Notes: generated by a model not told the origin, from the sequence alone. Positions 66-17,567 are shown, numbered from the stretch's first letter. The stretch: 64,000 bases of DNA from Bryobacterales bacterium (GCA_027452065.1 DAIDHC010000123.1:1-64000); one strand, 5' to 3'. Numbers and translations: made by a program.

Positions 66-1637
66 ATGAAGATCGTTATCGCCGAGCCGCTGGCGCCGGC
101 GGGCGTGAAGCTGCTCCAGTCGCAGCCCGGCTGGGAAGTGATCTTATCCAATCCCCGCGATTACACTCGTCATCTGCCGGACGCCGACGGCCTGATTGTT
201 CGCGGCTCGGTGCGGCTGACGGCCGCGGTGCTGGCGGAGGCGGCGCGGCTGCGCGTGATCGGGCGGGCGGGAGTGAGCGTGGAGAATCTGGACCTGGCGG
301 CGGCGACGACGGCCGGGGTTCTGGTGATGAACACGCCGGGGGGGAACGCGGTTTCGGTGGCCGAACACACGCTGGCGCTGATGTTGTCGCTGGCGCGGTC
401 GATACCGCAGGCCAACGCGTCGACCAAGCAGGGGAAGTGGGAGCGGCGGCTGTACACCGGGAACGAGCTTCGGGGGAAAACGCTCGGCGTGCTGGGGCTG
501 GGCAGCATCGGCCGCGAGGTGGTGCGGCGGGCGCGGCCGTTCGAGATGCACATCCTGGCGACGGACCCGTACGTGAACGCCGAGACGGCGGCCGACCTGG
601 GCATCGAGCTGGTGGCGCTGGACAGGCTGTACGCGGAGAGCGATTACCTGACGCTGCACGTGGCCCTGACGCCGGAGACGCACCGCATGCTGCACGCGGG
701 GGCGTTCGAGAAGATGAAGATCGGCGTGCGGATCATCAACTGCGCCCGCGGGGAGCTGATTGACGAGGCGGCGCTCGAGTCGGCGATGCAGTACGGCAAA
801 GTGGCGGGGGCGGCGCTGGACGTGTTCCAGGAGGAGCCGCCGGAGGGCAGCCCGCTGCTGGCGAGGGACAACGTGATCGCGACGCCGCATATCGGGGGGG
901 CGACCGAGGAAGCGCAGGAGATCGTCGGCGTGCGGATCGCGGCGCAGGTGGTGGATTATCTGAAGAACGGCATCGCGCTCAACGCGGTGAATATGCCGGC
1001 GCTGACGCACGAGCAGTTCCGCACGCTGGGGCCTTACGTGGACCTGGCGGGGCGGCTGGGCAACCTGGCGTCGTACCTGGCCGACGGAAATCCGAAGTCG
1101 GTGCAACTGCATTATTTCGGGAAGCTGGCCGAGCACAACACGCATCTGATCCGCAACGCGGCGCTGGCGGGGGTGCTGCACCGGAGCCTGTTCCACCGCG
1201 CCAACGCGATCAACGCCATGCAACTGGCGCACGAGCGGGGGCTCGACGTGTCGGAGACTCACGAGCAGCGGCACGCGCACACCGACTCGATCCGCGTGCA
1301 GTTGACTACCGCCGGGGGCGTGACACGGGTGGACGGCGCGGTGGTCTTCGGGCGGCCCCGGCTGATCCAGGTGGACGGGATCGCCTGCGAGGCGCCGCTT
1401 GAAGGGAACGTGACGTTTCTCCGGAACCAGGACGTGCCGGGCGTCATCGGCTACGTGGGCGGAGTGATGGGCGGCAACGGCATCAACATCGCGACGTTCT
1501 CGCTGGGCCGGAGGGACGCGCTGGCGGAGGCGGTGTCGGTGATTGTGACGGATCAGCCGGTGCCGGAGTCCGTGCTCAAGCTTCTGCTCGAGAACAAGGC
1601 GGTGACGCAGGCTCGGTTCGTGGCGTTTGCGCGGTAG
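66..1637 (+). CDS. serA: D-3-phosphoglycerate dehydrogenase
   Basis: 523 aa; NAD-binding GLGSIGREV, catalytic-region motifs INCARGELIDE and TPHIGGATEEAQ, C-terminal ACT-like region; full-length long form. Confidence 0.95.
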   Translation: MKIVIAEPLAPAGVKLLQSQPGWEVILSNPRDYTRHLPDADGLIVRGSVRLTAAVLAEAARLRVIGRAGVSVENLDLAAATTAGVLVMNTPGGNAVSVAEHTLALMLSLARSIPQANASTKQGKWERRLYTGNELRGKTLGVLGLGSIGREVVRRARPFEMHILATDPYVNAETAADLGIELVALDRLYAESDYLTLHVALTPETHRMLHAGAFEKMKIGVRIINCARGELIDEAALESAMQYGKVAGAALDVFQEEPPEGSPLLARDNVIATPHIGGATEEAQEIVGVRIAAQVVDYLKNGIALNAVNMPALTHEQFRTLGPYVDLAGRLGNLASYLADGNPKSVQLHYFGKLAEHNTHLIRNAALAGVLHRSLFHRANAINAMQLAHERGLDVSETHEQRHAHTDSIRVQLTTAGGVTRVDGAVVFGRPRLIQVDGIACEAPLEGNVTFLRNQDVPGVIGYVGGVMGGNGINIATFSLGRRDALAEAVSVIVTDQPVPESVLKLLLENKAVTQARFVAFAR

Positions 1638-5284: not shown

Positions 5285-6448
5285 CTAAGGGCCGAGCGGA
5301 AGCGTGAAATGGAAACGGGTGCCGGCTCCGGGCTCGCTCTCCAGCCAGATTCTTCCGCCGTGATGCTCCACCAGCTTCCGCGTGATGGCGAGGCCGAGGC
5401 CGGTGCCTTCGCGCACGCCCTTGGCCGTGACGCCGGCCTGATGAAAACTCTGAAAAACCGCTTCCTGCTCCTCCGGCGGGATGCCGACTCCGGTGTCGAT
5501 GACCGAGAAGGTCACATTGTCGGCCGCGGGCTGGGTCTGAATCCAGACTTTGCCTTCGGACGGGGTGAACTTGATCGCGTTGCTGATGAGGTTGAAGAGG
5601 ATTTCCTTGAATCGCACGCGGTCCGCCCAGAGGCGAACGCTGTCGGTGGAAAGGTTGGTGATGGTGATGCGCCGCTCCTGGGCCATGGGCCGGACGCTGG
5701 CCAGCACCTCTTTCAAGGCGCCCTGGATCTCGAATTCTTCGTGCTGAAGCTCGAGGTGGCCGGCTTCGATGCGCGAGAGGTCGAGGATGTCGTTGATCAG
5801 CGAGAGCAGGTGGCGCGCGGCTTCCTGGATATGGTTGATGAAGCGGTGATGGCGCTCGCCCAGCGTTTGGGAGGTTTGTTCGGCGAGCAGGTCGGCAAAG
5901 CCGATGATGGAATTCAGCGGGGTTCGAAGCTCGTGGCTCATGCTGGCCAGGAACTCGCTCTTGAGCCGGTTGGCGCGCTCCACTTCGCGGTTGCGCAGCT
6001 CGAGCCATTGATTGAGGCGCCGGATCTCTTCGGCCGCCTTTTTGGTGGCGCTCACGTCGCGGACGACGCACAGGACGGTGTCGCCGCCGTCGCCTTCGAC
6101 CGGGCTGAGCTTGATGTCGACCGAGAACTCGGTGCCGTCCTTGCGGCGGGCGAAAAGATCGAGGCCGGTTCCCATGGGCCGCGCGGTGGGGTTGCCGGCG
6201 TAGCCGGCGCGGAGCGCCTTGTGCTGGCCGCGAAGCCGGTCGGGAAGGAGTTTATCGACGCTCATCCCGATGAGCTCGGCGCGGGTATAGAGGAAGAGTC
6301 TCTCGGCTTCGGCGTTGGAGCTGACGATGGTGCCGTCGTGGCCCACCTCGAGAATTCCGTCCGGAGCGGCTTCCAGGAGGCGGTGCAGGCGCAGGGCTAC
6401 GTCTGGTGGGCGGGATTTCGGCGGCAGCTCAGACATAGGACCCGGCAC
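5285..6448 (-). CDS. PAS-domain sensor histidine kinase (soluble)
   Basis: 387 aa; PAS, H-box FLASMSHELRTPLNSIIGF, N-box LISNAIKFTP, GTGLGLAI. Confidence 0.94.
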   Translation of the reverse strand: MPGPMSELPPKSRPPDVALRLHRLLEAAPDGILEVGHDGTIVSSNAEAERLFLYTRAELIGMSVDKLLPDRLRGQHKALRAGYAGNPTARPMGTGLDLFARRKDGTEFSVDIKLSPVEGDGGDTVLCVVRDVSATKKAAEEIRRLNQWLELRNREVERANRLKSEFLASMSHELRTPLNSIIGFADLLAEQTSQTLGERHHRFINHIQEAARHLLSLINDILDLSRIEAGHLELQHEEFEIQGALKEVLASVRPMAQERRITITNLSTDSVRLWADRVRFKEILFNLISNAIKFTPSEGKVWIQTQPAADNVTFSVIDTGVGIPPEEQEAVFQSFHQAGVTAKGVREGTGLGLAITRKLVEHHGGRIWLESEPGAGTRFHFTLPLGP

Positions 6449-6683
6449 AAAGTGAACTCAAAACTTCCTCACCGCCATAACTGCATTCTCTCAGACTTCG
6501 CCGGCCTGTCCCGCCCCGATCCCGGGCCGGCGGAGTGAATCGCGCGACGGGGCCCCCTGAAGCCCCAGCGCGCTTTATCCGGCTGCCCACAGAGTCCCCG
6601 AAGGGAATCTCCTGGACGACTCCGGAATCCTGTTGCCGGCCCCGAAGCCGGCGCGATCGACGAACCCGCGTCCGGCCGCCGCC

Positions 6684-7577
6684 TCATACGCTGAGTACGG
6701 GACATGGTGCGTGCGAAATGATTCCATATGCCTTCGATCCCAACTGGCCCAGCAACCCTTCGGCATGCGTACGGCCAATCACCAGCAAGTCGGCTTCCTG
6801 CTCCCGGGACACGGATTCGATCGCATACCGTGTTTCCCCGAGGACAACGGTGGTGGCGGCCGGGGAGCCCGTCCGGGCCACCAGGTCGGCCAGATCGCGC
6901 TCGGCCCACTGGCGCGCTTCCAACTGCATGTCGGGGAGACCGGCGTCGGGGGTTCCCGGCAGCACCATCAGCGCGTGCGCGGCCAGCAGTTTCGCTCCGA
7001 ACGCCTTGGCCAAATCCGAGGCGAACCGCAGCACCGCGGCGCTCTCCGGCGCCAGGTTCAGGGCGCAGACAATCTGTTGCGGAGGGATGTGCACGCCGGC
7101 CGGATCGCCCGGCTTGTGCGGGCCTGTCCACACCGGCCGTACACAGTCGTGCAGCACCTTCGCGGTGACCGAGCCCAACAGGAGGCGGCGGAACACGCCC
7201 TGCCCGCGGGTCGGCATCATGATGACATCGCAATCTTTCTCCGCCGCATATTTGCAGATGCACTGCGCCGGGTCGCCGGTTCCGACGCCCACGCCCGTCC
7301 GCAGCCCTTTCAGCTCCAGCTCCGCGAAGGCCTCGAGGCGTTCGTGGGCCTGCTCCAGGAGTTGGCTCGAAACCGTCTCTCCGGAAGCAGGCTCCACGAC
7401 GTGAAGCGCCGTTACGCGAGCGTCGAACTGCCGCGCCATCGCCCGAACCGAATGGGCAAACTCGCGGCAGCGCTCGGAGAAGTCCACGGGAAACAGGATT
7501 CGATTGAAGTTGAAGTCATGATCTGCCACCGTGGTCACCGAGTCGGATGGACGTGGGGGTAGCAGGTGAGTGGCCAT
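6684..7577 (-). CDS. Tandem-domain universal stress protein (UspA family)
   Basis: Two Usp domains (RILFPVDFS...TRGQGVFRRLLLGSVTAKVL; QIVCALNLAPESAAVL...VIGRTH); start placed at ATG 7577 rather than the ORF-track start. Confidence 0.9.
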   Translation of the reverse strand: MATHLLPPRPSDSVTTVADHDFNFNRILFPVDFSERCREFAHSVRAMARQFDARVTALHVVEPASGETVSSQLLEQAHERLEAFAELELKGLRTGVGVGTGDPAQCICKYAAEKDCDVIMMPTRGQGVFRRLLLGSVTAKVLHDCVRPVWTGPHKPGDPAGVHIPPQQIVCALNLAPESAAVLRFASDLAKAFGAKLLAAHALMVLPGTPDAGLPDMQLEARQWAERDLADLVARTGSPAATTVVLGETRYAIESVSREQEADLLVIGRTHAEGLLGQLGSKAYGIISHAPCPVLSV

Positions 7578-8340: not shown

Positions 8341-10683
8341 ATGGCGGCAGGGCGAGCGTTACTTTGCGGTGCGGTGATGGTGCTGCTGCCGGGCTTTGGT
8401 CAAGCGCAGGCCGACTTCGCAACGGCCGTCCACCCGATTCTGGCGAGCCGCTGCGCGGGCTGCCACGCGGGGGAGCATCCGCAAGCCGGGTTGAGCTTCG
8501 ACAGCCGCGAGACGATCCTGAAAGGCGGGCGGAGCGGGCCGGCGCTGGTGGCGGGGGATTCGGGGGCGAGTCTGATGGTTCGCCGCATCACGGGCGCGGT
8601 GACGCCGCGCATGCCGATGGGCGGCGCGGCGCTGAGCGCGGCCGAGATTGCCGCGATACGCCAATGGATCGACACGGGCGCGGTGTTTCCGAAGGAGATG
8701 AGCCGGGCGGCGCCCGAGGAGTGGAACGCGCCGCTGGCGCCGCGCCGGCCCGCGGTTCCCGAGGGGGTCGAGCCGAATGCGATCGACCGGTTTCTGGCGG
8801 CATACTTCGCGCAGAGGCACCGGGCGCTGCCGGCGGTGGTGGAGGATGACGTTTACCTGCGGCGCGTTTCCTACGACATCACAGGGCTGCCCCCGGAGGC
8901 GGCCGCGTTTGCGCGCTTCCGGGCCGATCGCGATCCGGACAAGCGGATCCGCCTGGCGCGTTCGCTGCTGGACGACAAGACGGCTTACGCGGAGAACTGG
9001 ATCAGCTTCTGGAACGATCTTCTGCGGAACGACGAGGGAGTCAACTATGCCGGAATGCGCAAATCCATCACCGACTGGCTGTATCCGGCGCTGCTCGATA
9101 ACCTTGCTTACGACCGCATGGTGGCCACGTTGGTCAACCCGGTGGGGGAGGACGATCCGGACGGCTTCCTTCTGGGAGTGAACTGGCGCGGCGACGTCAA
9201 CGCCAGCCAGACGCCTTACATGCAGGCGGCGCAGAACACGGCGCAGATCTTCCTGGGCATCAATCTGAAATGCGCCAGTTGCCACGACAGTTTCATCAAT
9301 CGGTACAAGCTGAAGCAGTCCTACGGCATGGCGGCGATGTTCGCGCCGGGCGAGTCGCTGGAGCTGGTGCGCTGCGATGTGAAGATGGGGGTGCGGACAG
9401 ACCCGGAGTTCGTTTTTCCGGAGCTGGGCGCAGTGCCGCGAAACGCGACGCTGGCCGAGCGGCGGGCGGCGGCGGCGCGGCTTTTCACATCGCCGGGCGA
9501 CGGACGGCTGGCGCGGACGATGGTGAACCGGGTGTGGCAGCGGCTGATCGGCCGGGGGCTGGTAGAGCCGGTGGACGACATGGACGCGCGGCCGTGGAAT
9601 CCGGATCTGCTGGACTGGCTGGCTTCCGATTTCGCAGCCCGCGGCTACGACCTGAAATACCTGCTGCTGGAGATCGTGTCGTCGAAGGCCTACCAGATGC
9701 CTTCGGTGGGCGGCGCGCCGGACCGGACGCAGAGCTACGAGTTTCGCGGGCCGCAGCGGCGGCGCCTGACGGCCGAGCAGTTCATGGACACGGTGTCGGC
9801 GATGACCGGCGAGTGGCGGATCCTGCAGACCAAGGAGGAGAGCCGGTACAGCCGCGAGTGGCGGTTGAAATCGACGGCGCTGACGCGCGCGCTGGGGCGG
9901 CCGATTCGGGACCAGGTGTTCACTACGCGGAACGAAGACGCGACGACGCTGCAGGCGCTGGAGCTGATGAACGGCGAGACGCTGGCCAAGACGCTGCGGC
10001 GGGGGGCGCGGCGGCTGCTGAACGAACTGCCGCCGGCGCCGCCGAACCGGTTCGACAGCGGGGTGATGCACAAGGGATCCGAGCCGGTCGACATCGACGT
10101 CACGGGGAAGAAGCAGCTTTGGCTCCTGATGGAGGACGCCGGCTCGTACGACCCGTCGCGGAGTCTGGCGGGCTGGAGCGGGCTGACGCTGGACGGACCA
10201 AAAGGCGAGGTGAAGCTGGCGTCGCTTCCCACGGTTTCGAAATTCGAGGCGCGGAGCCTGACGGTGAAAGGCGAGAAGCGGGACGAGGTGATGGGCGCGC
10301 CGCTCGACACGACGCTGGTGTTCAACATCGACGGGATGGGATACACGCGGCTGCGCGGAGAAGCGGTGGTGGACGACAGCGGCAAGCGGGACGACATCGA
10401 AGCGGCGGCGCGGTTCTTTGTCTTCACCGAGCAGCCGGACCGAGACGAGCTGGTGCGGGTTTCGGGCGGGCCGCCGACGCCGGCTCCGGCGCCGGCCCGC
10501 GATGCCGATGCGCTGATCGACCGCTTGTTTTTGCAGGCCATGGGCCGGCGGCCGGACGAGCGGGAGCGGGCGCTGGCGCGCGATTTTCTCCAGCCCGCGG
10601 GGGCGGGCGCGATCGCGGAGAGCGGGCTCGAAGACTTTTTGTGGAGTCTGTTGATGCATCCGGAGACGCAGTACATCGATTAG
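8341..10683 (+). CDS. PSD1-type DUF1549/DUF1553 protein with cytochrome c-like motifs
   Basis: 780 aa; secretion signal, CAGCH and CASCH haem-binding motifs, DUF1549-like YLRRVSYDITGLPP, DUF1553-like LARTMVNRVWQRLIGRGLV. Confidence 0.9.
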   Translation: MAAGRALLCGAVMVLLPGFGQAQADFATAVHPILASRCAGCHAGEHPQAGLSFDSRETILKGGRSGPALVAGDSGASLMVRRITGAVTPRMPMGGAALSAAEIAAIRQWIDTGAVFPKEMSRAAPEEWNAPLAPRRPAVPEGVEPNAIDRFLAAYFAQRHRALPAVVEDDVYLRRVSYDITGLPPEAAAFARFRADRDPDKRIRLARSLLDDKTAYAENWISFWNDLLRNDEGVNYAGMRKSITDWLYPALLDNLAYDRMVATLVNPVGEDDPDGFLLGVNWRGDVNASQTPYMQAAQNTAQIFLGINLKCASCHDSFINRYKLKQSYGMAAMFAPGESLELVRCDVKMGVRTDPEFVFPELGAVPRNATLAERRAAAARLFTSPGDGRLARTMVNRVWQRLIGRGLVEPVDDMDARPWNPDLLDWLASDFAARGYDLKYLLLEIVSSKAYQMPSVGGAPDRTQSYEFRGPQRRRLTAEQFMDTVSAMTGEWRILQTKEESRYSREWRLKSTALTRALGRPIRDQVFTTRNEDATTLQALELMNGETLAKTLRRGARRLLNELPPAPPNRFDSGVMHKGSEPVDIDVTGKKQLWLLMEDAGSYDPSRSLAGWSGLTLDGPKGEVKLASLPTVSKFEARSLTVKGEKRDEVMGAPLDTTLVFNIDGMGYTRLRGEAVVDDSGKRDDIEAAARFFVFTEQPDRDELVRVSGGPPTPAPAPARDADALIDRLFLQAMGRRPDERERALARDFLQPAGAGAIAESGLEDFLWSLLMHPETQYID

Positions 10684-10692
10684 GAGTGAGGT

Positions 10693-12144
10693 ATGCGCGA
10701 GAACCTGGACAAGGAGTTGTTTCGCGGCCTGTCGCGGCGGCATTTTCTGCGCGCCTCGGCGGCGGCGACGCTGGCGGCGATGGGGTCGGGCGCGCCGCGG
10801 CTGTTCGGAGCGCCGGCGAAAATCGCGCCGCGCGCCGACAGCATGATCCTGCTGTGGATGGCCGGCGGGATGGCGCAGACCGAGACTTTCGATCCGAAGC
10901 GCTACACGCCGTTTGAGTCCGGCCTGCCTTCCAACGCCGTGCTGAGCACGTTTCCCAGTATCGATACGGTGGTGGACGGGGTGAAGATCTCGCAGGGGCT
11001 GGAGAACATGGCGCGCGTTCTGGACCGCGGCACCTTGATCCGGTCGCACCGCGTCGGGGATCTGGGCTTCATTCTTCATTCGCGGCACCAGTACCACTGG
11101 CATACCGGCTATGCGCCGCCGCAATCTGTCGCCGCCCCGCACATGGGGGCGGTGATCGCAAAGACGCTGGGCCCGCGGAATCCCGACATTCCCGCCTTCA
11201 TCGACATCGGGCAGAATCTGGAGATCGGCGGGGAGAGCGACGGGCTGAAGGCGTTCCACACGGCGGGTTTTCTGGGCAGCGAATTCGGACCGTTTTTCAT
11301 CAGCGATCCCAAGGACGCCGCGGCCAGCACGCGGCCGTCGGAATACGTCGGGCGGACGAGGTTCGAATCGCGCTGGAAGCGCTATCAGGAACTGGTGGCG
11401 GCGAGCCCGGTGGGCAGGTACGGCGGCGATTACCAGCGGGAGAGCCTGGCGCGCTCGCTCGAAAACGCGCATCGGCTGCTGAGCTCTCCGGCGGCGAAGG
11501 CTTTCGACCTGTCGCTCGAGCCGGAGGAGAGCTTCCGGAAGTACGACACCGGGCGCTTCGGGCAGGGATGCCTGCTGGCGCGGCGGCTGGTGGAAGCGGG
11601 GGCGCGTTTTGTCGAGGTGACCACGGAGTACATCCCGTTCCGCTACTGGGACACGCACGAGAACGGTCACGTGAGGGCGGCCGGAATGAAGCGCGACGTC
11701 GACGCGCCGGTAACGCGGCTGATTCTGGATCTGGAGGAGCGCGGGCTGCTGGACCGGACGCTGGTGGTGGTGGCGAGCGAGTTCGGGCGGGACATGATGG
11801 TGGAGGGTAAGCCGGGCCAGACGGTGAAGGAGCAGGTGAAGCAGCCGGCGATCATGACGGAGCTGAAGCATTACGGAATGCACCGGCACTTTACCGAAGC
11901 GGGCAGCGTGGTGATTTTCGGCGGCGGGTTCAAGAAGGGGTTCCTCTACGGCAAGACGGCGGAGGAGAGGCCGTGCAGCATCGTTTCCGACCCGGTGACG
12001 ATCGACGATCTTCACGCGACGATTTACGCGGCGATGGGGATTGCGCCGGATCTGGCGTACGAGGTGGAGCGGCGGCCGTTCTACGTCACCAAGGATGGCA
12101 AGGGCAAAGCGGTGGAAGCGCTGTTCGCGCACGGCGCGGCGTAG
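10693..12144 (+). CDS. DUF1501 domain-containing protein
   Basis: 483 aa; TAT-like RRHFLRASAAATL; MILLWMAGGMAQTETFDPK; VVASEFGRDMM; immediately downstream of the PSD1 partner. Confidence 0.92.
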   Translation: MRENLDKELFRGLSRRHFLRASAAATLAAMGSGAPRLFGAPAKIAPRADSMILLWMAGGMAQTETFDPKRYTPFESGLPSNAVLSTFPSIDTVVDGVKISQGLENMARVLDRGTLIRSHRVGDLGFILHSRHQYHWHTGYAPPQSVAAPHMGAVIAKTLGPRNPDIPAFIDIGQNLEIGGESDGLKAFHTAGFLGSEFGPFFISDPKDAAASTRPSEYVGRTRFESRWKRYQELVAASPVGRYGGDYQRESLARSLENAHRLLSSPAAKAFDLSLEPEESFRKYDTGRFGQGCLLARRLVEAGARFVEVTTEYIPFRYWDTHENGHVRAAGMKRDVDAPVTRLILDLEERGLLDRTLVVVASEFGRDMMVEGKPGQTVKEQVKQPAIMTELKHYGMHRHFTEAGSVVIFGGGFKKGFLYGKTAEERPCSIVSDPVTIDDLHATIYAAMGIAPDLAYEVERRPFYVTKDGKGKAVEALFAHGAA

Positions 12145-12161: not shown

Positions 12162-15100
12162 TCAGGCGGCTTCGCGGTCGCTGCCGGCGAGGCGGAAGTA
12201 GGGATCGCCGTAGTGCTGGTAGGCCGGCCAGGAGAGGCTGGCGGCGATGGCGCGGCGGGCGTCGCGCATCGCTTGCCACATGGGCGCGGGGGCGGCCGCG
12301 GCGCCGAGGAGGGAGGCGTAGAGGGACGCGGCGAAATGGGACGCTGCCGAGTCGTCGATCGGCCAGGCGGTGCAGACGAAGTTGGCGACGCCGCGGTTGA
12401 AGAATTCGGCGGCGAAGCTGGGCGCCATGCCGGCCGCGGATTCGACCGCTTCCGGCGCCAGTTCGCCTGAGCGGCAGGCGTTGGCGAAGACAAAGCGCGG
12501 AACGCGGTCCAGGCGGCCCAGATCGGAAGCGTTCAGCACGTCGCCGCCGGAAAACAGGAAACCGGAGCGGGACGGGGCGGCGGCGTCGAACAGGCAGTGG
12601 CCGGCGTAGTGGAGCACGTCGTAGGGAGGGTCATTGTCGAGAGCGAGAAGGACGTTGAGCGCCGTGGCCTCGCGCGGGCCGATGAGCGGTGTGCAGGAGA
12701 TGAGGGGCGCGGCGGCGCCGCGGTTCAGATCTTCAAACAACGCCAGCAGGCGAGCGGCCTCGTCGCGGGCGCCGGGCAGAGGGCGTTCGCTGGCGCCGTC
12801 GGCCACCAGCAGCACGCGCAGAGGGCCTCCGGAGGGAGGCAGAGCCTCGGGCGGCGGGGCGAAGGACGTGCGCAACTGCCGGGTGAGGGCGCGGTTGAGG
12901 CCGAGGAATCCATCGAGCGGGGAATCGGCTTCGCCGATGCCGGACGGCGGGGCGGCGAGTTCCCAGTAGACGCGCGCCGCGTCGCTGTTGCAGGTGATGA
13001 CCAGGGGCGCCGAGCCGGGAAAGGCCGCCAGGAAATCGCGCGGGAACAGAAAATCGAAGAGGAAGCGGCCCAGGCGGTGGCGGCGGGCGGGATCGGACTC
13101 GCGCAACAGCGCGTCGTTGATCTGCTCGACGCGCCGGGCGTTGAGGGCGACGGCTCGCTCCGGGATGGAAGCGTTGTCGCCGATGACGCCGCAACGGCAG
13201 AGGCCGTCGGCGAACTCGACGGACAGGCGCGTGGCGGCGGGCTCGCGGTGGATTTCGGGCTGGAGCGGAGTTGAGGGATGGGGCACGCCGGAGAGGTCGA
13301 AGTTGCCGCCCAGCTCCGCGGCGGCGGCACGGAGCGCGGAGCCGAGGCGCCCGGCATGGCCGGGCAGGACGGTGAAAGTGACCGCGGTCAGGAGGCCGGC
13401 GTTGGGTTCGGCGAGGGCGCGGCGCAGGCCGCTCAGCCAGGCCCGCGCGGCTTCAACGGTGGAAAGATTGTCCTGGCCGGCGCCGATGAGCGGGGCGGCG
13501 AGGTGGCGCTTGCCGAGACGGGCGAGCGTCCAGCACAGGCCGCGCGCCAGCACGGATAACTCCGGCGCGCCGAAGCCTCCGATGCGGCCCATTCCGGCGA
13601 TGGCGAGGACGACACCGGCATGAGAGGGCCGTGGATCGGGGAGCAGAAACGTTTCGCCGAGCTCGCCGCGGAGAACGCCCCGGGCATGGAACTGCGCCAG
13701 CAGCGGCTCGCCGGGGGCACTGAGAGCGAGGTCCAGATCGCGCTCGGCGCCGCTGGGGCGAACGCCGAGATAGTGGCCCACAGCGATGGCGTCGATGGGC
13801 GGCAAGCCGGAGAGCGAAGCGGGCGCGACTTGCTCGACCGGGCACTCGATCACGGAGATTTTGATCGCCGGGCCGGAGCTTTCCGCGGGCTCGGGCGGCG
13901 GGTTGTCGCGCTGGAGAATCAAGTCGACGATTTCGGGTTCCTCCGGCGACAGAGGGCCGGCCTCGGGCCCGCCGCGGCGGCGCAGGGATGAGACCAGCGA
14001 GGCGATGCGGCCGATGCGAGCCTGGTGCGCGGCGCCGGCCGCCTCGGGCAGTGCTCCGGCGGGGGCGGCGGAGGGCGGTTTGGCTTCGTTTTGTCGAATT
14101 CCGGTCGAGAGAAATTCGTCCATTTTCCCGAGCACTTCGGGGAACTGCGGCAGCCCCTGGTGGTCGCAATCGACGAAAAACGCCGGGACGCCGCCGAGCA
14201 GCCCGAGGTTGTGCGGCACGGTGCCGTCGCCGAGGTTGGTGAAGACGTAGCCGGCGTTGGAGCCGAGTTGGTTCAGCTCCGCCAGGCCGCTGGCGGTGGG
14301 GCGGTTGTAGCCGGCGACATAGATCATGCGGGAAGGGTCGACGGCGGCGGCGAGCTCGCGCTGGAAGTGCAAGGCGCCGTCGATGAGCGGCTGGCTCACG
14401 GGAATGCGAGTGTAGGTGGAGGCGCGATAGAGAGGATCGAGCCCCGGCAGCCGGCCGAGAGCGGGGAGCATCTGATAAACGCCGGGGAACGTGGCGGCGA
14501 CGCGCATCAGATCGTCGAGGCTGTGCTCGAGGTCGATGTTGGAGATGAGCTGGAGCACGCTGTTTTCGCCGGAGAGAAGCTGGGGGATGGAAAACGAGCC
14601 GTAGTTCGGCGTGCCGAGCATAATGAGGCGTCCGCCGCGGCGCAGGCCGTCCGCGTCGGCCATGCCGGCCCAGTGATCGGGGTAGCGGGCGATGAAGCTG
14701 CGGGCAACGAGGCCGCCCATCGAGTGGGCCACCAGGTGAACGGGAGCGCCGGGGCCGAACCAGTCGAGGATGCTCTGGTGAAGGCCGGCGGCGGTGACGC
14801 GGATGTCGCGGCGCCAATCGAAGAAAAACGGGCGGACGTTCCAGGCGCGGCTGAGGGAAACGATCTGCTTTGCGTAGTAGCGGAGCATGATGCCGGAGGG
14901 GCGGACGTCGTGAACGCTCAAGCCGGTGGCGGGGTCGAGCGGAAGGCGGGTGAAGGCGCCGAAGATGAAGCGCCAGACGCTGGCCCAGATGAGATCGGGG
15001 TCGGAGCCGTCGAAGGCGGTGAGCTCGCTGCCCATGATGCCGGGCAGGAGGACGACGTTTCCCTGGGAGGCGGCGGGGCCGCGGAACTCCGAAGACGCCA

Positions 15101-15338
15101 GCGAGGCAAGCTCTTCCCACTGGCGGCCGCCGAGCGTGGTCCGGAGAGCGAGTTCCTGTTCGGGAGTTGCATGGCGAATGGCGTCGATGAGTGAGGCCGG
15201 CGCCGCGGCCGACAGCCGGGCGAGGTAGCGGCGTTGGTTGTCGATGGTCATGAAGAGATCGCTCGTGGTTGGGCCGGGGAACGGAGTGAGGCCCGACACC
15301 CATTGCGAGAGTAGCGCCGCGGTTGCGAGGGGCGGCAA
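12162..15338 (-). CDS. LCAT/PGAP1-like alpha/beta-hydrolase fused to C-terminal CHAT (caspase-like) protease
   Basis: 1058 aa; VVLLPGIMGSEL, AHSMGG (S206), DGTVP (D371), DCDHQG (H393); CHAT HYAGH (H914) and NACRSG (C955). I confirmed the codons at 14721-14723 (Ser), 12597-12599 (His) and 12474-12476 (Cys). Confidence 0.88.
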   Translation of the reverse strand: MPPLATAALLSQWVSGLTPFPGPTTSDLFMTIDNQRRYLARLSAAAPASLIDAIRHATPEQELALRTTLGGRQWEELASLASSEFRGPAASQGNVVLLPGIMGSELTAFDGSDPDLIWASVWRFIFGAFTRLPLDPATGLSVHDVRPSGIMLRYYAKQIVSLSRAWNVRPFFFDWRRDIRVTAAGLHQSILDWFGPGAPVHLVAHSMGGLVARSFIARYPDHWAGMADADGLRRGGRLIMLGTPNYGSFSIPQLLSGENSVLQLISNIDLEHSLDDLMRVAATFPGVYQMLPALGRLPGLDPLYRASTYTRIPVSQPLIDGALHFQRELAAAVDPSRMIYVAGYNRPTASGLAELNQLGSNAGYVFTNLGDGTVPHNLGLLGGVPAFFVDCDHQGLPQFPEVLGKMDEFLSTGIRQNEAKPPSAAPAGALPEAAGAAHQARIGRIASLVSSLRRRGGPEAGPLSPEEPEIVDLILQRDNPPPEPAESSGPAIKISVIECPVEQVAPASLSGLPPIDAIAVGHYLGVRPSGAERDLDLALSAPGEPLLAQFHARGVLRGELGETFLLPDPRPSHAGVVLAIAGMGRIGGFGAPELSVLARGLCWTLARLGKRHLAAPLIGAGQDNLSTVEAARAWLSGLRRALAEPNAGLLTAVTFTVLPGHAGRLGSALRAAAAELGGNFDLSGVPHPSTPLQPEIHREPAATRLSVEFADGLCRCGVIGDNASIPERAVALNARRVEQINDALLRESDPARRHRLGRFLFDFLFPRDFLAAFPGSAPLVITCNSDAARVYWELAAPPSGIGEADSPLDGFLGLNRALTRQLRTSFAPPPEALPPSGGPLRVLLVADGASERPLPGARDEAARLLALFEDLNRGAAAPLISCTPLIGPREATALNVLLALDNDPPYDVLHYAGHCLFDAAAPSRSGFLFSGGDVLNASDLGRLDRVPRFVFANACRSGELAPEAVESAAGMAPSFAAEFFNRGVANFVCTAWPIDDSAASHFAASLYASLLGAAAAPAPMWQAMRDARRAIAASLSWPAYQHYGDPYFRLAGSDREAA

Positions 15339-15507
15339 GAGGTTGCTGCTAATCTATTGACAAAAGAGTTCTATCGGGGGCTTCGGGTGTTGTGACCGGC
15401 ATTTTCGGCTCTCCCGGCGTTGCGGCAGGAGCGGCCGAATCGACGTGTTTGAAACGGGCCGCGCGCTCAGGGCGTCCACCGAGAGGGCCGCGGCGGTTTC
15501 GGCAACA

Positions 15508-15990
15508 ATGATGAACGGCAAGCGCATCGTGGGGGTGTTACCGGCCTGCAACGCCGCCCGGGCGCTGGAGGCAGCGCAGCGGCCGGGGCTGATAGTGGTG
15601 GCGCATCCGAAGAATCGCGGCTACGGCGCGAATCGGAAAACGTGCTGCGCGACGGCCCTGGCGCGGCGGGCCGATGTGGTGCTCATGATTCATCCCAGCC
15701 GCCGGTACTCGATGCCGCCGGGGACGAGCCTGTCGGAATATCACACCGGCTTTCGCGCCGACGGCCGGGAGTTTCGGGGCGCGCGCACGGGCGAGATCTC
15801 CTGCCCGGCCGGCTCTTTTCGCGATGCGTCGTCGATCTACTTCCGGCGCAGCTTGACGTACGGCCTGGGAGTGTGGAAGACCGGTGCGCAGGCCCGCATG
15901 GCGCTGTGGGGGCCGGGCCGCGCTTCGCAGTTTGAATACTCGGGTTTCGAGCGGAAGCCGCGGGTTGCGGCGCCGGAGAAATCGCGGTGA
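15508..15990 (+). pseudogene. Degenerate GT2 (dolichol-phosphate mannosyltransferase-like) glycosyltransferase remnant
   Basis: Conserved islands (KRIVGVLPACNAARALEAA, HPKNRGYGANRKTC, DVVLMIHP, LSEYHTGFRA, GEISCPAGSFRDASSIYFRRSLTYGLGV) joined in frame, with the DDxSxD segment and central segments missing. Confidence 0.7.
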
Positions 15991-17567
15991 GCGCGAACGG
16001 GACGCGGGAGCGAGGCTGGGCGGGAAACGGGAGTGCGGCGCTGTGGGCGGTGGCGGCGGCTTGCGGGGTGCGTCTCTGGCTGATGCCGCTGCCGTCCAGC
16101 TTCTGGGTGGACGAGATGGGCACGGCATTCGTCGTGCAACATCCGGGCGATCCGTCGTTTGCGGTGGCGCCGCAGGTTCCGGCTTCGATTTACTACATTC
16201 TGCCGAAGCTGTCGAGCGCCCTGTTTGGCGCTTCGGAGATTGCGTACCGGCTGCCGTCGGTGATTCTGATGGCGGTGGCGCTGGTCCTGGTGGCGCGGCT
16301 GGCGGCGCGGCTCATCGCGCCGGAAGCGGGCTGGTTCGCCGTGTTCGCCTGCTTTTCGCTGCGCGGCATCAACTACGCCGCGGGTGACGCGCGGCCCTAT
16401 GCCCTGGGGATGGCGATATCGGCAGCCGCGCTGCTGGGGCTGGTCCGATGGTTCGACGAAGGGAAGCGGATCGACGCTGCTCTTTTCTTTCTTTGCGCGG
16501 TTCTCTTGTGGCGGGTGCAGCTCGTTTTCTGGCCCTTTTACCTGATCTTCGCGCTTTACGCCGGCCTGCGCCTTTGGCTCCGCGACACGCCGGTGCGCCG
16601 GCGGGAAGTGGCGGTGGTGTTCCTGCTCACCGGGCTATGCCTAATACCCGTAGCCTTGGAGGCGCTGAGCCTGCTGAGGCACGCGGGGGCGCACGTGATT
16701 GTCGACGTGCCCGGCGCGCGCGACCTTGTGCACGCTTTGAAGCTGCCGCTGTTTCTAGTCAGCGTGGCGGGAGTGTGGCTGCTGGCGCGGCTGGCGGGAA
16801 GCGGCGAGCGCTCCGCCCGGCCGGTTGCGAGCGCGCTCGTCCTCGGCCTGGCCTGGTGGCTTGCGGTGCCGCTGGTCCTGTTCGCGTTTTCCCGCATCAC
16901 GGGAACCAGCGTGTTTATCGCGCGCTACATTTCACTGGCGCTGCCCGGAGCAGCGATGGCGGCGACGGCGGCGGCGGCGTATTTTATGCCTCGCCGGCTG
17001 TGGCGGCCGCTGGCGCTTCTGTTCGGCGCCGGGGTGCTCCTGTATCTCGGCCAGTGGCGTCATTTCTGGCCGGCGCATCATCCCTCGGATTGGCGGGGCG
17101 CCTCGGCCGCGCTGTCGCGGATGGGAATCGACGAAGCAACGCCGGTGATCTGCCCGAGCCCGTTTGTGGAGGCGCAGCCGCCGGAGTGGCGTCCGGGTTA
17201 TCCGCAGGCGACGTTTCTTTATTGCCATTTGCTGACTTATCCTCCTCCGGGGCGCAAGTACACGTTTCCGTTCAAGACCTCGCCGGAGGCCGAGCTCTAC
17301 GCGGCGGAGCTGACTGCATCGGCGCTGGCGCCGGCGGGCCGGTTTGCGATTTACGGGGGCGACGCGAACGTGCGTTTCTGGGAGAGTTGGTTCGCGCGGC
17401 GGCCGGAGCTGGCGGGCTGGAGACACGGCTCAATCGGCTCCTTCGGGGACGTGGAGTCGGTGGTGTTTCAGGCCCCGCGCGGGCTGGACGCGGCGCGGGC
17501 GGGCGAAGCGGTTTCGAGCGCCAGGAACACGAGCGCGATCCAGAGCGCGTCGGCGATGAGGAGATGA
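15987..17567 (+). CDS. Membrane glycosyltransferase, GT39/PMT-like
   Basis: 526 aa, about 10 TM segments, acidic WVDEMGT motif after TM1; start overlaps GT2-remnant stop by 4 bp (GTGA). Confidence 0.75.
   Translation: MSANGTRERGWAGNGSAALWAVAAACGVRLWLMPLPSSFWVDEMGTAFVVQHPGDPSFAVAPQVPASIYYILPKLSSALFGASEIAYRLPSVILMAVALVLVARLAARLIAPEAGWFAVFACFSLRGINYAAGDARPYALGMAISAAALLGLVRWFDEGKRIDAALFFLCAVLLWRVQLVFWPFYLIFALYAGLRLWLRDTPVRRREVAVVFLLTGLCLIPVALEALSLLRHAGAHVIVDVPGARDLVHALKLPLFLVSVAGVWLLARLAGSGERSARPVASALVLGLAWWLAVPLVLFAFSRITGTSVFIARYISLALPGAAMAATAAAAYFMPRRLWRPLALLFGAGVLLYLGQWRHFWPAHHPSDWRGASAALSRMGIDEATPVICPSPFVEAQPPEWRPGYPQATFLYCHLLTYPPPGRKYTFPFKTSPEAELYAAELTASALAPAGRFAIYGGDANVRFWESWFARRPELAGWRHGSIGSFGDVESVVFQAPRGLDAARAGEAVSSARNTSAIQSASAMRR

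Follow-up and report, generated by a model that had tools for sequence, protein, structure and literature searches.

Kaur et al. reported in 2020 that VMAP caspase-superfamily domains always occur with a neighboring alpha/beta-hydrolase gene (PMC7159879). The same pairing is predicted to supply joint effectors in the VMAP (MoxR-vWA) and GAP1 systems, where the two partners are separate genes or are tied to NTPase-centered systems (PMC7159879). Thoeris TM-macro effectors respond to ADPR or IAD, which gate them via the macro domain (PMC11204291), and PMC12881547 cites protease activation of a fungal gasdermin. Among lipases, LPLA2/LCAT and the type VI secretion system (T6SS) lipase Tle4 are secreted or injected single-purpose enzymes. 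Caspase-type cascades are known from CRISPR type III systems, and in type IV Thoeris, a TIR is reportedly joined to a caspase-like protease.

Here, we describe a gene within a 64,000-nucleotide stretch of DNA from a Bryobacterales bacterium (GCA_027452065.1 DAIDHC010000123.1:1-64000, hereafter called the window) whose product carries a lipase, a macro-like domain, and a CHAT domain on one chain. The family to which it belongs is a fused variant of the caspase/alpha/beta-hydrolase pairing of Kaur et al., with a macro-like domain and without an NTPase core. Unlike the VMAP and GAP1 loci, the window gene has no MoxR, vWA, or GTPase gene to be seen beside it; Pfam searches of the adjacent window open reading frames (ORFs) found no MoxR, vWA, or VMAP gene, and there were no Cas genes among the window neighbors scanned in this way. 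The family is real, well conserved, and apparently undescribed. A curated protein-family library holds no model for it, its proteins are labeled in public plasmid records solely as "CHAT domain-containing protein," and a literature search, in which subscription journals were thinly covered, turned up only the pairing of Kaur et al.

An earlier note on this DNA had proposed a single 1,058-amino-acid ORF, and this frame proved to be real: it starts from a TTG at 15338, occupies 12162-15338 on what is now fixed as the minus strand, and contains no internal stops. All residue numbers given here follow this TTG-start ORF. An in-frame ATG lies at codon 30 (position 15251), and alignments to the nearest homologues start at approximately residue 26 to 27, so the shorter frame in Table 1 is the likely gene. 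The GC content at the three codon positions (0.72/0.53/0.86) is as in the adjacent genes, so the frame is coding. The highest 19-residue hydropathy of the chain is 1.29, so the protein is without a membrane span, and no signal peptide-like stretch was found. The five catalytic residues named in the earlier note are where it had placed them, and all are conserved across the family rather than varying among homologues (Table 1).

Table 1. Features of the fusion gene in the window; homologue counts refer to the 82 aligned homologues
Feature	Position	Strand	Basis
Lipase/macro-like/CHAT gene, complete	12162..15251	-	Likely ATG start, 1029 aa
LPLA2/LCAT-type phospholipase domain (predicted), residues ~95-415	14094..15056	-	Profile and Foldseek matches
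Nucleophile Ser206 codon (AHSMGG)	14721..14723	-	S in 81/82 homologues
Asp371 codon (GDGTV)	14226..14228	-	82/82; aligned with GDGTV of LPLA2
His393 codon	14160..14162	-	82/82; aligned with conserved His of LPLA2
Lipase-to-macro-like linker, residues 416-491	13866..14093	-	pLDDT 52-76; column conservation mean ~0.2
Macro-like (leucyl-aminopeptidase N-terminal type) domain (predicted), residues ~492-690	13269..13865	-	Pfam in homologues, profile, AF2
Gly-rich loop, macro phosphate-loop equivalent	13461..13493	-	Family LIGxGxG; window PLIGAGQDNLS
CHAT (caspase/separase-like) peptidase domain (predicted), residues ~700-1050	12189..13241	-	Pfam, profile, Foldseek
Catalytic His914 codon (HYAGH)	12597..12599	-	82/82 homologues
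Catalytic Cys955 codon (NACRSG)	12474..12476	-	80/80 homologues reaching the column

With the window protein alone, the Pfam LCAT model (PF02450) scored 20.4 bits, just short of its cutoff of 21, and several homologues exceed that cutoff. A profile of the 82 homologues searched against PDB sequences matched group XV phospholipase A2 and Tle4 (4r1d), each at 5.3e-9, and Foldseek analysis of the AlphaFold model matched LPLA2 entry 4x92 (E value of 1.8e-10; TMt of 0.62) and likewise 4x97. In the alignment, the family Ser206 column corresponds to an Ala in 4x92, the LPLA2 S165A entry. The structure model and alignment thus place both an LCAT/LPLA2 fold, with an alpha/beta hydrolase predicted around S206, and a Ser-Asp-His triad in the window protein, and it is well supported that the lipase is a predicted phospholipase of the LPLA2/LCAT type. 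It had been called LCAT/PGAP1-like; the LCAT part of that description stands, but PGAP1 is ruled out as the nearest family, since both Pfam and structure favor LCAT/LPLA2. The window lipase shares its catalytic fold and triad with LPLA2/LCAT and Tle4 but, in contrast to these, is a cytosolic enzyme that forms one chain with a macro-like domain and a protease. The sole aligned homologue in which the nucleophile Ser is replaced, by Gly, is encoded in a metagenome-assembled genome labeled Akkermansia muciniphila (L112:9926-12991).

The middle domain is below Pfam detection in the window protein alone and shows solely through homologues and structure. Pfam Peptidase_M17_N matched homologues at 3.7e-10 and 6.4e-7, the 82-homologue profile matched leucyl aminopeptidase N-domains at 1.1e-8, and a profile of the middle domain matched 3jru at 2.8e-10 and, weakly, the macro domains 2dx6 (E value of 0.008) and macroH2A (0.05). 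AlphaFold2 (AF2) modeled the domain alone with a pLDDT of 94.1, and Foldseek matched this model to 2dx6 (TMt of 0.78) and macroH2A1.1 (TMt of 0.74), as well as to PARP9, MACROD1, and aminopeptidase N-domains. These profile and model results agree with the macro/M17-peptidase N-terminal fold that had been suggested for this region, over a longer extent than the approximately 495 to 660 first given, and it is well supported that the domain is predicted to be a macro fold of the M17_N kind. With M17_N and macro domains, it has in common this fold, the profile match, and a Gly-rich phosphate loop. That loop aligns with the phosphate loop of 2dx6 (LLGTGVGGLP) and is conserved at G619 (80/82), G621 (65/82), and position 623 (Gly in 62/82). 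The aligned aminopeptidases lack a macro-type phosphate loop, and the family pattern is a hybrid of both families: most homologues have the phosphate-loop-like G-x-G-x-G, while the macro NAAN and GGGVA motifs (adenosine and ribose loops) are not kept in the homologue alignment, where VGHYxGxxPxxAExxLD is found instead. Since those two loops are not conserved, ADP-ribose itself is a putative ligand only. Leucyl aminopeptidase has an M17 catalytic domain, but none follows the macro-like domain here; Pfam and Foldseek show no M17 C-terminal metallopeptidase domain and a chain that continues into CHAT, so M17 aminopeptidase activity is ruled out.

CHAT is the only domain above its Pfam cutoff in the window protein alone (PF12770, 9.4e-22, 78.2 bits against a cutoff of 24). 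The 82-homologue profile also matched the CHAT domain-containing protein 8tl0 (1.4e-5), and Foldseek found Cas7-11-bound Csx29/TPR-CHAT (6e-10), the anti-sigma factor DdvA (2.7e-9), and separase. The above-cutoff profile, the caspase/separase fold, and the His and Cys dyad are all present, bearing out the C-terminal CHAT core with a caspase-type fold around H914/C955 that the earlier note had proposed. From profile and model, it is well supported that this domain is predicted to be nearest Csx29/TPR-CHAT and separase. The CHAT fold and His/Cys dyad are common to the window protein, Craspase TPR-CHAT/Csx29, and SAVED-CHAT; unlike these, the window protein is without a TPR or SAVED sensor, has no gRAMP or Cas partner among the scanned neighbors, and carries a fused phospholipase instead. 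For the full chain, AF2 (on an alignment of 77 rows with plasmid-derived rows left out) gave a mean pLDDT of 88.7 and a pTM of 0.65, and PepA and macro domains were also among the Foldseek matches.

A first contig scan with the window protein as the sole query matched nothing; a further scan of genome contigs found at least 80 family loci. The lipase triad, macro-like domain, and CHAT dyad are co-conserved in the 82 homologues. The listed loci span at least eight phyla (Acidobacteriota, Verrucomicrobiota, Nitrospirota, Pseudomonadota, Thermodesulfobacteriota, Myxococcota, Bacteroidota, Chlorobiota, and Planctomycetota), and plasmid-borne copies occur in Rhizobium, Paracoccus, Azotobacter, and Ensifer. 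A tree of the listed loci, which is not congruent with phyla, splits cleanly into 38 short forms (approximately 1,000 to 1,200 amino acids) and 42 long forms (approximately 1,800 amino acids), with the window protein in a nine-row Acidobacteriota/Verrucomicrobiota clade. The long forms have an extra N-terminal DUF7379 alpha/beta hydrolase, and 10 of them a C-terminal TPR-S. In two Paracoccus loci, a gene of approximately 1,090 amino acids (L028:3205-6480 and L032:3107-6391) lies ahead of the long form on the same strand; it is nearly without a Pfam match (SBP_bac_3 in one locus), its stop overlaps the next start in L028, and its product is a possible sensor partner. Phage records contained no match to the fusion protein, so no mobile-element link is seen there, and a phage origin was rejected on this search.

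Conflict-type genes lie within 5 kb of the core in 31 of the 86 loci and often seem to form operons with it; they comprise C14 caspase (15 loci), TIR (7), SIR2-type (7), nSTAND1 (6), TPR-S (3), and patatin (1) genes; these counts are a census rather than an independent test, because the detector HMMs were seeded from the same loci. A recognized partner is missing in the other 55. No C14 flank match is farther than 3 kb away, and with one exception these genes directly adjoin the core on the same strand, mostly upstream (directly so in approximately 13 loci), while the STAND neighbors at six loci have WD40 or similar repeats. In the clade of the window protein, a SIR2 and then an nSTAND1 gene are found in L053, L056, and L058 (with WD40 repeats confirmed in the last two), and a TIR gene neighbors L060. 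One member has a TPR-S-patatin phospholipase fusion directly upstream (L071:7375-9660) and a C14 caspase gene farther upstream.

The two enzymes also occur apart. A CHAT gene lies 12 bp before a separate lipase gene in L046, and a WD40-CHAT gene adjoins a disrupted lipase in L047. On a Streptomyces linear plasmid, the gene for a 1,346-amino-acid NB-ARC ATPase-CHAT protein overlaps a lipase gene by 4 bp (L033:1883-5923 and 5920-7371), an apoptosome-like two-gene version. Elsewhere, a trypsin-like peptidase replaces CHAT beside the same lipase type, as a lipase-trypsin fusion (L030:7743-10475) or in trypsin-lipase order (L042:8062-10494 and L044:6879-9557). The two-gene versions and trypsin fusions together support functional coupling of protease and lipase. 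The L047 lipase (263-838, minus strand) is broken by one in-frame TAG, reflecting either decay or an assembly error.

In the window itself, the flanking genes look unrelated to the fusion. A Planctomycete-type PSCyt1/PSCyt2/PSD1 gene and a DUF1501 gene (8341-12144, plus strand) are convergent with it, the DUF1501 gene 18 bp from its stop. Divergent from it are a short ORF that, by reading of the sequence, resembles a degraded glycosyltransferase and has no Pfam match (15445-15990, plus strand), and then a PMT_2-like membrane mannosyltransferase gene (15987-17567, plus strand). A candidate codirectional partner at 15538-16128 on the minus strand was rejected: its GC content by codon position is unlike that of a coding frame, and the true neighbors are the divergent glycosyltransferase remnant and PMT-like gene. 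In the 90%-complete host genome, we detected no C14 caspase, TPR-S, TIR_2, or SIR2_2 gene and only subthreshold fragments of nSTAND1. Four other CHAT proteins are encoded in the same genome, on contigs C137, C96, C155, and C75 (L152 to L155), in open frames of 809 to 1,181 amino acids. The first reading had been of a possible stand-alone effector with no adjacent NTPase, sensor, TIR, or Cas gene. Their absence holds for the window and the stand-alone state for the host genome, but the latter fails for the family, because approximately one-third of homologous loci adjoin a caspase, SIR2, TIR, STAND, or TPR-S gene.

Since the catalytic residues are nearly all kept in relatives and approximately one-third of these adjoin cell death or defense genes, the protein is probably a self-contained (putative) suicide switch. 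The anatomy of the three-domain chain is well supported; we infer the ligand, the order of events, and a role in defense. Our preferred reading, in which we place about equal belief and doubt, is a cytosolic, ligand-gated effector of regulated, probably anti-invader, death, with trigger and weapons on one chain, whose CHAT protease frees or licenses the phospholipase. The macro-like domain may be the sensor: it would bind a small phosphate-bearing ligand, plausibly an NAD- or ADP-ribose-derived signal, and would keep the chain silent beforehand. Upon binding, the CHAT protease would act in trans or in cis to cut the flexible linker after the lipase, a candidate site of proteolytic release, or to unlock the lipase otherwise, and the phospholipase would then attack the inner membrane from inside, leading to growth arrest or cell death. 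In relatives, the neighboring C14 caspase, SIR2/TIR, or STAND gene may encode the trigger or amplifier.

This proposed logic resembles that of Thoeris TM-macro ThsA, in which a domain of the macro fold controls an effector that damages membranes (PMC11204291), and a TIR or SIR2 gene adjoins some relatives. In contrast, ThsA is a transmembrane segment effector and the fusion is an enzyme pair, the macro-like domain belongs to the aminopeptidase-N subtype and lacks NAAN, and TIR_2 was not found in the host genome. The window locus is not a Thoeris system, which consists of a ThsB TIR and ThsA; a TIR gene is adjacent in some relatives only. In favor of the effector reading, we count the wide but patchy distribution, the caspase, SIR2, TIR, STAND, and TPR-S neighbors, and the split CHAT and lipase versions. 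Against it, we count the partnerless window copy, the lack of detected C14, TPR-S, TIR_2, and SIR2_2 genes in its host, the 55 loci without a recognized partner, the linker sequence, the loss of the NAAN and GGGVA motifs, the lack of matches among phage records, and a pattern within the genus that is unlike defense-gene gain and loss.

The linker bears on a rather unlikely alternative, in which the macro-like domain, or oligomerization, activates protease and phospholipase together, with neither processing the other. In 75 of 82 homologues, one linker column is Arg, but the window protein has Ala427 there, so a universal Arg cleavage site is ruled out and the Arg is kept solely as a lead. Joint activation would accord with this nonuniversal site, with the equal and nearly absolute conservation of the two active sites, and with the pairing of lipase and trypsin-like peptidases in either order, which makes a fixed interdomain cut unnecessary. 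However, the repeated protease-lipase pairing in fusions and operons is most simply explained if one partner acts upon the other, in the manner of gasdermin-protease pairs.

The distribution of the gene bears on a second alternative, which we consider quite unlikely, that the protein has a housekeeping function, as an enzyme in lipid turnover, envelope stress, or protein quality control, and takes no part in death or defense. All four genomes of the same genus have one copy (51 to 68% identity per piece), and the fusion, at approximately 54% identity within the genus against approximately 65% for a CtaA control, diverges only somewhat faster. The ordinary window flanks, the lack of a detected conflict partner in the host genome, and metabolic genes beside several homologues (such as methionine synthase in L052) point the same way. 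Against housekeeping, the gene is patchy at phylum scale, being found in 9 of 396 Acidobacteriota genomes at an E value of ≤1e-30 and sparse in Bryobacteraceae and beyond; the tree is incongruent with phyla, copies are plasmid-borne, caspase, TIR, SIR2, and STAND neighbors recur, and CHAT domains are regulated proteases. It is highly unlikely that the CHAT protease acts on outside targets, for example by activating a neighboring C14 caspase, with the lipase mainly a membrane localizer or substrate acylator: the upstream C14 genes and the caspase-type cascades of CRISPR type III would fit, but the complete triad (81/82, 82/82, and 82/82) argues for real lipase chemistry, and the host genome has no detected C14 gene.

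Returning to the effector reading, a broader proposal, which is speculative and which we think is probably wrong in at least some part, is that these proteins form an undescribed, multiphylum family of suicide systems made of a single protein. The macro-like domain would sense a nucleotide and link an NAD-derived immune signal directly to the caspase-like protease, which in turn would set free the lysosomal-type phospholipase. The ligand, activation order, and phage protection are directly testable, given approximately 80 homologues with invariant catalytic residues and the TIR, SIR2, caspase, and STAND genes beside family members. If the proposal is true, bacteria would combine a possible signal receptor with a caspase-like protease and a phospholipase that destroys membranes, all in one chain. 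This would be a compact parallel to the inflammasome-caspase-gasdermin logic in which a lipase is the executioner, and a lipase counterpart of the caspase-gasdermin axis.
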